In this document: positions 3,695 through 57,362 of the stretch, one piece after another
Layout: the number at the start of each line of letters is the position of its first letter
Numbering within the stretch: the stretch's first letter is position 1
Origin: Collimonas fungivorans
GTDB lineage: Bacteria; Pseudomonadota; Gammaproteobacteria; Burkholderiales; Burkholderiaceae_D
DNA: 64,000 nt
Direction of reading: 5' to 3'
NCBI RefSeq assembly: GCF_001584145.1
Contig: NZ_CP013232.1
Coordinates: forward strand, 5,535,730 to 5,599,729
Translations under genes and position numbers: made by a program
The notes under the pieces: generated by a model
What the model saw: only the letters and a program-made list of their open reading frames with translations
What the model was told of the DNA's origin: nothing
Database searches by the model: none

Positions 3695-3720
3695 GCCTAT
3701 GTTTCACGTGAAACATAGGC
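3695..3720. promoter_or_regulatory. parS centromere site 1
   Basis: The 16-base core TGTTTCACGTGAAACA at 3700-3715 is a perfect palindrome and matches the widely conserved chromosomal parS consensus bound by ParB/Spo0J. The symmetry extends five more bases on each side, giving a 26-base perfect palindrome. It lies in the 204-base intergenic space upstream of mnmG. Confidence 0.93.
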
Positions 3721-3753
3721 TGAGCCAAGTTTATCGAGCCCTAAAATAATAAC

Positions 3754-3781
3754 GGCGATTGTTTCACGTGAAACAATCGCC
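3754..3781. promoter_or_regulatory. parS centromere site 2
   Basis: This is a second TGTTTCACGTGAAACA core at 3760-3775, embedded in a 28-base perfect palindrome with arms different from those of site 1. The two centres are exactly 60 bp apart. The extended arms could also fold as hairpins in RNA from the TauE gene, but there is no terminator-like T-run. Confidence 0.93.
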
Positions 3782-13317: not shown

Positions 13318-14205
13318 ATGGACATTACCCAACTTCGCGCCTTCGTCACCGTCGCCAGGGAAGGCAACCTGACACGCGCTGCAGAACTGCTGCACGTCAC
13401 GCAACCGGCTGTCAGCCTGCAAATCAAGTCGCTGCAGGCAAGCCTGAACCTGCAATTGTTTGCACGCATCCCGAGCGGCATGGCGTTGACCGACGATGGC
13501 GTCAAGTTACTGTCATTTGCCGAACGTGCAATCGCCGCCATGGCCGAATTGCGCCAGCAGGCCGAAAGCCTGCACTCGAACAGCTCGGAAATCCTGAGTG
13601 GAAAACTTGCGATCGGCACCATCCTAGATCCTGAATTCATCCGGCTGGGTGCTTTCCTGCAGCGCCTGGTGGAAAGTTATCCCCAGCTTTCTACACAGTT
13701 GCAACACAGCATGTCAGGCGATGTGCTGCAGCAAATCAAATCCGGCCATCTCGATGTCGGTTACTACCTCGGTACGCCAAACAAGAATTTCCACCGGCTC
13801 ACACTGACACAATTTACTTACTGTGTGCTTGCACCATCCGGCTGGAAAAGCAGGGTTTCAGGAAAAGACTGGCCGGCTTTGGCGAAACTGCCCTGGATCT
13901 GGACTCCTCCCGAGTCCGCTCATCATCGTTTGCTCAGCAAAACTTTTGCTCAATACAAAGTCACACCTAACAAAGTTGCCCTGGTCGACCAGGAACCTTC
14001 GATGCTCGACCTGGTGAAATCCGGAGTCGGCTTGTCCCTGGTGCGCGAGTCAGTGGCGTTGCGTGAAGCACATGCTCACGGTCTGGTGATTTCCGATACG
14101 GTCAATTTATCCACCGAACTTTCGTTTATCACCTTGGAGAAGCGTAAAGACGAACCGGTAATTTCCGCAATCTTTGCCATATTGCAATCAATTTGGAAAA
14201 ATTAA
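13318..14205 (+). CDS. LysR-family transcriptional regulator
   Basis: A 295-residue LysR-type regulator. The winged helix-turn-helix is at the N-terminus (MDITQLRAFVTVAREGNLTR, then AAELLHVTQPAVSLQIKSLQ), followed by a periplasmic-binding-fold effector domain from about residue 90. It is divergent from mmsA and probably controls mmsA and the GMC dehydrogenase. The effector is not predictable. It directly borders the AT-rich DnaA-box region to its right, and no terminator is obvious after its stop codon. Confidence 0.92.
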   Translation: MDITQLRAFVTVAREGNLTRAAELLHVTQPAVSLQIKSLQASLNLQLFARIPSGMALTDDGVKLLSFAERAIAAMAELRQQAESLHSNSSEILSGKLAIGTILDPEFIRLGAFLQRLVESYPQLSTQLQHSMSGDVLQQIKSGHLDVGYYLGTPNKNFHRLTLTQFTYCVLAPSGWKSRVSGKDWPALAKLPWIWTPPESAHHRLLSKTFAQYKVTPNKVALVDQEPSMLDLVKSGVGLSLVRESVALREAHAHGLVISDTVNLSTELSFITLEKRKDEPVISAIFAILQSIWKN

Positions 14206-14268
14206 TGCTTTAAAAGTCCTTTTTAGGAAGCAATCCTCCGCTTTTTTCCAAAACCGGCTTTTTCAGCT

Positions 14269-14491
14269 TTGTATTTAAAGATTTATATATATAAATAGTA
14301 GTAGTAGTTAACCACCTGCTTTTCTGTGGATAACTATAAATTTGACTATTCATTCAATAACTTACAACTTGGATAAATGCTGAGTAAACCTTGTATCTGG
14401 AAAGAACATTTCTTGGATAAAAATAGAGGTCTGGTTTGTTGCCTTGTTTATTCACATTAGATTCCTGTAGTTATCCAAAGACTTATCCACA
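14269..14491. repeat. Origin module, copy 1
   Basis: This is the first copy of the origin module. Bases 14269-14312 are identical to 14661-14704, and similarity continues beyond that, with all landmarks offset by 391-392 bases. It ends with the box pair TTATCCAAA and TTATCCACA. Confidence 0.88.
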
Positions 14492-14660
14492 GCCCTCTTT
14501 TTGGATCTCTTCTTTTCCTCATTTTCAAATAGCTGCTTTTCTTGAATTGAAGAAAGAAAAGCTCTGAAAAAAAATGATTTTTCTTAAGAAATTGCATTTT
14601 TAACTTCTTTTTATTAATTCTTTTTTAAAAGCAACTTCAAGAGAAAAAAGCTTTTCGGTT

Positions 14661-14882
14661 TTGTATTTAAAGATTTATATATATAAATAGTAGTAGTAGT
14701 TAACTAACTGCTTTTCTGTGGATAACTGTGAATTTGACCATTCATTCAAGTACTTATGGATTGGATAAAGCCTGAGTAATCGGTGTATCGCAAAAGAACA
14801 GTTCTTGGATAAAAAGATGACTGTGGAAAACTAACTTGGATATCCACAATTTAAAAACACGATATCCACAGCCTTATCCACA
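14661..14882. repeat. Origin module, copy 2
   Basis: This second copy has the same AT stretch, four TAG triplets and inverted perfect box, and ends with the box pair ATATCCACA and TTATCCACA. It carries extra box-like sites (TGTGGAAAA at 14822, ATATCCACA at 14840) that copy 1 lacks. Confidence 0.88.
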
Positions 14883-14944
14883 AAACCTGAAAATCGGCCT
14901 GTTTACCAAGGTTTTTGAACGTCCCAAGCCCGTTTTCAAAAAAA

Positions 14945-15048: not shown

Positions 15049-16350
15049 ATGAGTGATCAACAGACTTTCCTGCGCGACGCCATGCGTCGTTTGAACCTGA
15101 CCAGGGACCATTTTTCCGATCGCATCGGCGTCCGCAAGCGCGCATTGGATACTTGGCTGCTTCCTGAAACATCAAGTGAATTCCGGGTCATGCCGGACAT
15201 TGTCAGCAAATTTGTCGGGGAAATCCTCGAAGGTGAATTGCTTCTTCCTGCCTCGACGCAGAGCGTATATCAAAATAAGATTGGCGCCCCGCTCCGCGAA
15301 CAGATTGCCTATAACGGCAGACCTCAGCTGTTATCGGTGGACCAGTTTTCACGCGATTCGCTGGAGCAGCTGTTCCGCATCACGGACATCATGCAGCCCA
15401 TTGCGAGGCGCCAGAAGGTCACGCGCATCCTTGAGGGTGCCGTACTGGCCAATCTGTTCTTTGAAGCCAGCACACGCACGCGTATCAGCTTTGGCGCGGC
15501 GTTTTGCCGGCTGGGAGGTTCGGTTTGCGACACTACCGGCTTCACCTTCTCTTCAATGACCAAGGGCGAGTCGATTTATGACACCAGCCGCGTCATCAGC
15601 GGTTATGCCGACGTCCTGGTAGTCAGGCATCCCGAACAAGGGGCGGTCGACGAATTTGCCCGCGCCACGAATATCCCGGTGATCAATGGCGGCGACGGCC
15701 CGGGTGAGCATCCCAGCCAGGCGATCCTGGACCTGTACACCATACAGCGCGAATTCTCGCGCCTGGGGAAACTGGTCGACGGCGCCCACATCGTCATGGT
15801 GGGCGACCTGAAGTACGGCCGCACCGTACATTCGCTGATTAAGCTGCTGGCGCTGTATCGCGGCCTCAGGTTCACGCTGGTGGCGCCGGCAACGTTGGAG
15901 ATGCCGGCCCATATCCTGGAACGCATTGCGCGCGGCGGCCACGTGGTGGAGCAGTCGACCTCGCTGGCGCAGGGCTTGAAGGGGGCTGACGTCGTGTACG
16001 CAACCCGGATCCAGAAAGAACGCTTCGCCGACGAGGCCATAGAAGGCTACACCCCGGATTTCCAGATCAACCAGGCGCTGATCGACTCCGCCTGCAGCGC
16101 CGACACCATCGTCATGCATCCCCTGCCACGCGACGGCAGGCCCGGCGCCAATGATCTCAGCACCGATCTCAACCACGATCCGCGCCTGGCGATCTTCCGC
16201 CAGACGGACAACGGCATACCGGTGAGGATGGCGATCTTTGCGACCTTGCTGGGTGTGGAAAACCAGGTGCAGCATTCGATGCGCGACGCCAGCTGGCGCT
16301 CGCCGCACCACGTCGGACCGGATGATGCGGCATTTGATGGGGTCGCCTAG
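15049..16350 (+). CDS. Aspartate carbamoyltransferase with N-terminal helix-turn-helix domain
   Basis: The 433-residue product has about 100 N-terminal residues (MSDQQTFLRDAMRRLNLTRD onward, with FSDRIGVRKRALDTWLLP resembling a Cro/XRE helix-turn-helix) and then a full aspartate/ornithine carbamoyltransferase fold. ATCase motifs are intact: STRTR for carbamoyl phosphate, the SMTKGES loop, HPSQAILD, KYGRTVHS and MHPLPR. The reaction is carbamoyl phosphate plus aspartate to carbamoyl aspartate, the first committed pyrimidine step. AAAGG precedes the ATG at 15049 (15043 is possible); the frame stays open to 14836, but that stretch is DnaA-box DNA. A usual catalytic chain is about 310 residues. 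Similar long forms may exist in Burkholderiales. No pyrI, pyrC or pyrR is nearby. Confidence 0.88.
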   Translation: MSDQQTFLRDAMRRLNLTRDHFSDRIGVRKRALDTWLLPETSSEFRVMPDIVSKFVGEILEGELLLPASTQSVYQNKIGAPLREQIAYNGRPQLLSVDQFSRDSLEQLFRITDIMQPIARRQKVTRILEGAVLANLFFEASTRTRISFGAAFCRLGGSVCDTTGFTFSSMTKGESIYDTSRVISGYADVLVVRHPEQGAVDEFARATNIPVINGGDGPGEHPSQAILDLYTIQREFSRLGKLVDGAHIVMVGDLKYGRTVHSLIKLLALYRGLRFTLVAPATLEMPAHILERIARGGHVVEQSTSLAQGLKGADVVYATRIQKERFADEAIEGYTPDFQINQALIDSACSADTIVMHPLPRDGRPGANDLSTDLNHDPRLAIFRQTDNGIPVRMAIFATLLGVENQVQHSMRDASWRSPHHVGPDDAAFDGVA

Positions 16351-57294: not shown

Positions 57295-57362
57295 AAAAAA
57301 AAGCCCGCCAGCCTTGCGGCAGCGGGCTAAATCCAAAACTTAGGGAGAGTTGGAGGAGACCA
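57295..57362 (-). ncRNA. Candidate small RNA with anti-Shine-Dalgarno stretch
   Basis: On the minus strand a CU-rich segment, GGTCTCCTCCAACTCTCCC, is followed by about 14 bases and then a stem (AGCCCGC / GCGGGCT, 57302-57328) ending in eight T, a textbook intrinsic terminator. A TTGAAA and a TATTCA 18 bases apart lie just upstream. No gene precedes the terminator. The exposed CUCCUCC could pair with ribosome-binding sites, as in known Hfq-type small RNAs. Start site and function are inferred. Confidence 0.5.

Follow-up and report, generated by a model that had tools for sequence, protein, structure and literature searches.

The published BUS runs in the order DnaA box, spacer and DnaA-trios, and the published search accepted spacers of 0–16 bp from the box to the first trio (PMC8287927). 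In that survey, as described, screening left a single candidate in more than 99% of genomes (PMC8287927), so arrays of modules would not appear there. A single unwinding site is given for the B. subtilis and E. coli origins as reviewed (PMC13220808), and descriptions of the bipartite origins known from B. subtilis and C. difficile assign trios and opening to one part (PMC13220808, PMC7561715). E. coli oriC has a gidA-mioC location (PMC10225481); it is described with one unwinding element, which contains 13-mers and putative trio-like motifs, and it scores weakly as a BUS. Putative double origins have been listed for other chromosomes, their units being, in the entries cited, far apart or beside a duplicated dnaA (Gao 2015, PMC4403523).

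The locus described here was found in a window comprising the terminal 64 kb of a single-contig Collimonas genome of 5,599,729 bp (G000), whose base 1 is the start of dnaA. We consider it likely to be a Collimonas-like chromosome origin with two complete, direct BUS modules, both of which are kept. Like the BUS of B. subtilis and other bacteria, each module has a perfect DnaA box, a spacer, at least three GAT trios (3'-5') and adjoining AT-rich DNA inside the origin; unlike them, origins of this type have two or three full modules each, with a conserved GTTAAC/GTAAAC beside the trios (partly by construction of the module set). The two DnaA-box clusters, which may act together, recall the bipartite type of origin known from B. 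subtilis (oriC1/oriC2), H. pylori and C. difficile. Here each part contains a full trio module, in contrast to B. subtilis and C. difficile as described in the sources above, and dnaA does not lie in between. Like E. coli oriC, the locus is apart from dnaA and on the mnmG (gidA) side, whereas the E. coli origin, as characterized in the source cited, has no repeated module. More than one origin-like unit per chromosome is a trait shared with the putative double origins of Gao 2015, but modules of the present kind are 0.3–3.6 kb apart and appear to form one origin. The parts are known (DnaA box and DnaA-trios, BUS) and the arrangement appears to be new: repeated trio modules were not found described in the open-access literature, covered mostly as titles and the first lines of abstracts.

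Layout of modules A and B

The putative oriC (14206–14890) is intergenic, between a LysR-family regulator gene on its left (13318–14205, plus strand) and an aspartate carbamoyltransferase gene on its right (15049–16350, plus strand). The latter encodes a PRK11891-type enzyme that has about 90 residues ahead of the first carbamoyltransferase domain, and its closest named relatives are in six Collimonas genomes (protein identity 89–94%). Collimonas is placed by NCBI in the Oxalobacteraceae, Burkholderiales; throughout the comparisons the genus label g1 is taken as Collimonas and the family label f1 as Oxalobacteraceae. The dnaA gene is found 49.8 to 49.1 kb past the module region (about 49 kb), and a distance of 10.6 kb separates mnmG from the modules. 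Adjoining mnmG, 10.5 kb from the origin region, are two perfect copies of the parS consensus (3700–3715 and 3760–3775), and no further perfect sites were found in the whole genome beyond this pair at 3700–3775. Elsewhere in the window, the minus strand at 57295–57361 matches Rfam family RF02278, Betaproteobacteria toxic small RNA, at 52 bits (cut-off 50).

Modules A (14260–14491) and B (14652–14882) are each about 230 bp long and lie in direct orientation 392 bp apart, the order from DnaA box to AT tract being that of the minus strand in both. In the direction of the coordinates, each consists of an AT tract, DnaA-trios, a spacer, a DnaA box, weak boxes and a closing box pair, and module B repeats the layout of module A at an offset of 391–392 bp. 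A repeat search returned a direct repeat of 164 nt with 87% identity (14260–14423 and 14652–14815, spacing 392) and a 20-nt repeat with 90% identity at the closing pairs (14472–14491 and 14863–14882, spacing 391). The 44-mers at 14269–14312 and 14661–14704 are identical, and both this shared stretch and the complete two-module layout, as put forward in the preliminary description, were recovered.

The AT-rich tract of module A (14269–14295), with the palindrome ATTTATATATATAAAT at 14281–14296, has a mean column identity of 0.907 across 13 genomes of the genus, and that of module B (14661–14687) has 0.962. The trios lie on the plus strand: in module A (14296–14312; mean column identity 0.983) four TAG triplets (14296–14307) are followed by an in-phase TTA and AC, and in module B (14688–14704; 0.976) the four TAG triplets occupy 14688–14699. 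A perfect DnaA box, TTATCCACA, is found on the minus strand in each module (14325–14333 and 14717–14725), followed on the same strand by weak TTATCCAAG/T boxes at 14368 and 14412 in module A and at 14760 and 14804 in module B. The closing pair of module A (TTATCCAAA and TTATCCACA; 14471–14491, plus strand, boxes starting at 14471 and 14483) has a mean column identity of 0.986, and module B ends in extra and closing boxes (14822–14882) at 14822–14830 on the minus strand and at 14840–14848, 14862–14870 and 14874–14882 on the plus strand. The intermodule DNA (14492–14651) is AT-rich, up to 84% AT, and poorly conserved (0.682). Read on the minus strand, each module gives TTATCCACA, GAAAA, a variable stretch, GTTAAC, CTACTACTA and the AT palindrome.

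A BUS box may have up to two mismatches, and the box has none in either module; at least three trios with a central A (NAN, 3'-5') are called for, and TAG occurs four times on the plus strand of both, which is the strand on which DnaA would be expected to assemble by analogy with described BUS. The spacer of 17 nt from the box to the first TAG is one over the published limit. The TTA after the last TAG is in phase, which raises the number of readable trios to five and shortens the spacer to 14 nt, if a triplet with a central T rather than A is counted as a trio. As expected of a chromosomal origin, the modules form a cluster of DnaA boxes in AT-rich intergenic DNA: between 14201 and 14903 there are 16 DnaA-box sites with at most two mismatches, and AT content is 56–84% per 50 bp. 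The 64-kb window contains 23 sites within one mismatch of TTATCCACA (6.2 expected; none of 100 shuffles had as many), nine of which fall in 14325–14882, and four of the 29 perfect DnaA boxes of the 5.6-Mb genome sit within 560 bp at the modules. Trios and an AT tract are present in both modules, a departure from the single unwinding part of a bipartite origin.

Conservation in Collimonas and arrangement across the Oxalobacteraceae

BLAST against 294 family genomes matched the modules in 13 of 15 Collimonas (g1) genomes, with no match in G102 (1.7 Mb) and G217 (86% complete). In a tree of the copies from the 13 genomes, the A copies and the B copies formed two separate groups with support of 100/100, indicating a duplication that predates these species and copies that have not been homogenized. 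Across these genomes, mean column identity is 0.94–0.99 for the trios, strong boxes and closing pairs, 0.86 and 0.85 for the stretches from strong box to closing pair, 0.74–0.77 for the spacers, 0.68 for the intermodule DNA and 0.60–0.67 for the flanks. The same module pair is present in six named Collimonas loci, which may overlap in species with the numbered genomes. Individual elements vary: the second strong box is altered to TGTGGGTAA in one named locus (L022), a module B trio is altered to TAGTAGTAATAG in another (L027), and two numbered genomes have a changed strong box, G164 in module B (TGTGGGTAA) and G197 in module A (TGTGGACAA). Judging from these alignments, both modules have probably been kept by selection. 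The comparison with related genomes proposed in the preliminary description showed both copies retained in the 13 genomes, and its suggestion that one module might be spare is unlikely given the long-term conservation of both.

Across the family, a strict trio-box pattern was present in 156 of 392 genomes, while the reversed-pattern control gave no matches among the 392 genomes listed. A sequence-only module model (R1), built from 71 modules partly collected with a fixed pattern, matched in 335 of the 371 family genomes that are at least 90% complete: 300 had at least two matches, 35 had one and 36 had none, where the 300 are counted as matches per genome and close spacing is confirmed in fetched regions only. 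A duplicated unit, called unusual in the preliminary description, is therefore the common state in this family. Three matches are often found in genera g6, g15 and g19, and a single match was seen in all eight matched g5 genomes and in 27 others. Within G000, only modules A and B match the trio model.

We fetched 80 regions, picked from matching genomes, and scored them with a position-weight scan (16 bits for listing, 35 bits for counts; across 40 shuffled regions, the eight highest maxima were all at the 8-bit floor). At 35 bits or more, ten regions had three modules, 48 had two, 21 had one and one had none; the resulting 58 of 80 multi-module regions, in 17 of 24 genera, are not a family frequency, for which the 371-genome scan is fairer. 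The modules are direct in 50 of these 58 regions, and direct pairs are spaced by 329–3570 bp (median 529). The other eight (L233–L238, L276, L279) have inverted pairs, minus then plus, with the AT sides facing inward, 452–1074 bp apart; they come from six g23 genomes (L233–L238), G002 and G017. Genus g23, with ten fetched regions, includes six inverted, one direct and three single-module regions. In G225, G245, G174, G142 and G089, which belong to other genera than Collimonas, the scan found a low-scoring partner module (17.6–24.4 bits, against at least 60 bits for the other). Some relatives have a gene between the modules, encoding a protein with a 2Fe-2S domain in G239 and one of the phosphorylase superfamily in G002, which is a further likeness to bipartite origins.

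In nine of ten family regions viewed, the neighborhood includes at least one of an MmsA-type dehydrogenase, a GMC oxidoreductase, a LysR regulator and an AsmA-like protein, as in G000; these genes were mostly named by eye, with three (one LysR, one dehydrogenase and one GMC) confirmed by Pfam. The tenth region, from G292, was without any of the four. The distance between dnaA and the modules, in the genomes for which it was worked out, is smallest in G239, at about 7 kb, and largest in G201, at about 566 kb if the contig is circular. The common neighbor genes around the modules suggest that in many members of the family the origin stayed in place and dnaA moved.

A scan across the order matched 34 of 399 genomes, 11 of them in the Oxalobacteraceae, each with at least two matches; it gave no match in at least two genomes of that family (G004, G013). 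Matches in other families of the order were weaker. In family f49 (L321 and L323; G590 and G757), direct pairs of trio modules are 611 bp apart, with the second box reading TGTGGACAA.

GC skew and the position of the origin

Skew within the 64-kb window alone was too flat to place a switch. Stretches sampled along the whole chromosome of G000 have positive skew between 0.1 and 2.7 Mb and, with few exceptions, negative skew beyond 2.85 Mb, indicating an origin near the ends of the record. To locate the change point, we compared 21 stretches from −350 to +320 kb around dnaA in 2lnL. The module pair was better than dnaA by about 11, and better than a second DnaA-box cluster, described below, by 17 (24 without the 1–20 kb stretch). 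The best change point was at +11 kb or, without the 1–20 kb stretch, at −41 kb, which is 8.5 kb to the right of the modules (−49 kb); the module point was 5.4 or 6.2 under the best in 2lnL and outside the nominal interval, although such intervals assume independent windows and are too narrow. Of the switch near 14.5 kb predicted in the preliminary description, G000 shows a better fit at the modules than at dnaA but not the exact position; taken alone, the skew of G000 is only suggestive of an origin at the modules. The stretch C1:4001–20000 (L002), after dnaA-dnaN-gyrB, has a GC content of 0.44–0.56 and negative skew up to 16 kb, and it disturbs the skew near dnaA. It is possibly acquired DNA. 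KOPS-like GGGNAGGG was also considered as a strand marker for the change point and was dropped, as its forward places among the matches listed reach 1.9 Mb.

Relatives in which dnaA and the modules are far apart separate the two positions more clearly. In G292, dnaA is at 2,390,079 and the module at 2,077,576, 312 kb apart; the best skew point is 2,079,001 (interval 2,076,501–2,083,001, again too narrow), with dnaA 52.1 units of 2lnL below it. In G048, with dnaA at 1,117 and the module at 363,653 (362 kb apart), the best point in 2-kb windows is 364,001, dnaA being worse by 20.8; in 5- and 10-kb windows the best point shifts to 252–255 kb, with the module within 0.7 of it and dnaA worse by 16. 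G234 gave no usable signal, its skew being driven by one odd 20-kb stretch. The switch from negative to positive skew therefore falls on the modules in two of the three relatives tested and on dnaA in none, and lies nearby in G000. A skew minimum at the rpmH-dnaA junction, one part of what the preliminary description would have counted against its reading, was not found: in G000 the modules fit better than dnaA, and in G292 and G048 the switch is on the modules. The final kilobase of the contig, on the rpmH-dnaA side, contains one perfect DnaA box. We conclude that the module site is very probably oriC, and the reading of the region as an origin with tandem DnaA-trio modules gains support from the skew of these two relatives. 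As the main origin, dnaA was rejected on the change points of G000, G292 and G048.

The second cluster of DnaA boxes is in the priA-hemE interval (C1:5499840–5500340; about 112–610 of L019), 50 kb to the left of the modules. It consists of two similar units 465 bp apart, each with ATATCCACA or TTATCCACA, a short gap and TGTGGATAACTTTGTGGACAA, has no match to the trio model, and was matched in all 15 genomes of the genus. Parts of it are kept in the 1.7-Mb genome G102 (genus g1; L146 and L147), which has no trio-module match. As the main origin, this cluster was rejected on the 17–24 units by which it falls below the module pair in G000.

Alternative readings and possible roles of paired modules

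The most substantial alternative is that one module does the unwinding and the other stays closed as a BUS-like DnaA-loading or regulatory array. This arrangement would resemble what is described for B. subtilis and C. difficile, where unwinding is confined to one part of a bipartite origin (PMC13220808, PMC7561715), and several observations are compatible with it: the strong box is imperfect in module B of G164 and in module A of G197, one partner module is weak in G225, G245, G174, G142 and G089, and only one match was found in all eight matched g5 genomes and 27 others. Yet of the two altered strong boxes one belongs to module A and the other to module B, and in Collimonas the trios and AT tracts, beyond the boxes, are conserved in both modules (0.91–0.98), whereas a plain array of boxes needs no in-phase trios. 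We regard this reading as a real possibility, although we do not favor it.

Much less plausible is that the modules titrate or reactivate DnaA while replication starts at the rpmH-dnaA side or at priA-hemE. The distance of 49 kb to dnaA, the repeated boxes at priA-hemE in all 15 genus genomes and a putative oriC adjacent to hemE listed for Ralstonia pickettii (PMC4403523, as given in that source) could be read in its favor. It is opposed by the change points on the modules in G292 and G048, by the poorer fit of priA-hemE and dnaA in G000, by the restriction of the trio model in that genome to the two modules and by the single perfect box on the rpmH-dnaA side, and we consider it very unlikely. 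Least probable of all is a recent segmental duplication whose second copy has no function. The likeness of the two copies in G000 (44 bases identical; 164 nt at 87% identity) might suggest one, but the A and B groups split before the 13 genus genomes diverged, with the identical core persisting, and other Oxalobacteraceae genera also have paired or triple modules; the tree of A and B copies rejects it.

For the reading of the region as an origin with two complete modules, the observed basis is the sequence, its conservation, the age of the duplication and the agreement of skew in two relatives. By analogy with described BUS, we infer DnaA binding, the strand bound, opening at both modules and cooperation between them. 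DnaA would bind the strong box next to the spacer in each module and would then be handed onto the plus-strand TAG trios, from which its filament would grow leftward into the AT tract, causing the AT tract to open; the weak boxes and closing pair to the right of each module would serve as a DnaA-loading array. Across the trios, a T every three bases is invariant in 71 modules, although the collection pattern fixed those positions for many, and this periodicity fits the trio reading. In direct orientation, both modules would guide DnaA to one and the same strand, so that their simplest roles would be alternative or cooperative opening, and the likeliest use is that either module could start the opening while the two DnaA assemblies assist each other.

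How two helicases load at a bacterial origin is described as unclear (PMC10201434). Direct modules alone are no solution to loading a second helicase; in inverted pairs DnaA would occupy opposite strands, which might allow two to be loaded. A more tentative proposal, which we hold with less confidence than the single-module alternative, is a poly-BUS origin in the Oxalobacteraceae, in which several complete modules each open DNA and seed their own helicase; inverted pairs (six g23 genomes, G002 and G017) would load one helicase per module, and direct arrays would fire alternately or successively. With at least two matches in 300 of 371 genomes, direct or inverted, the Oxalobacteraceae provide natural experiments on the loading of two helicases, and the trio-module motif helps to place the origin in a family where dnaA can mislead. 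The finding bears on how bacterial chromosomes are opened.
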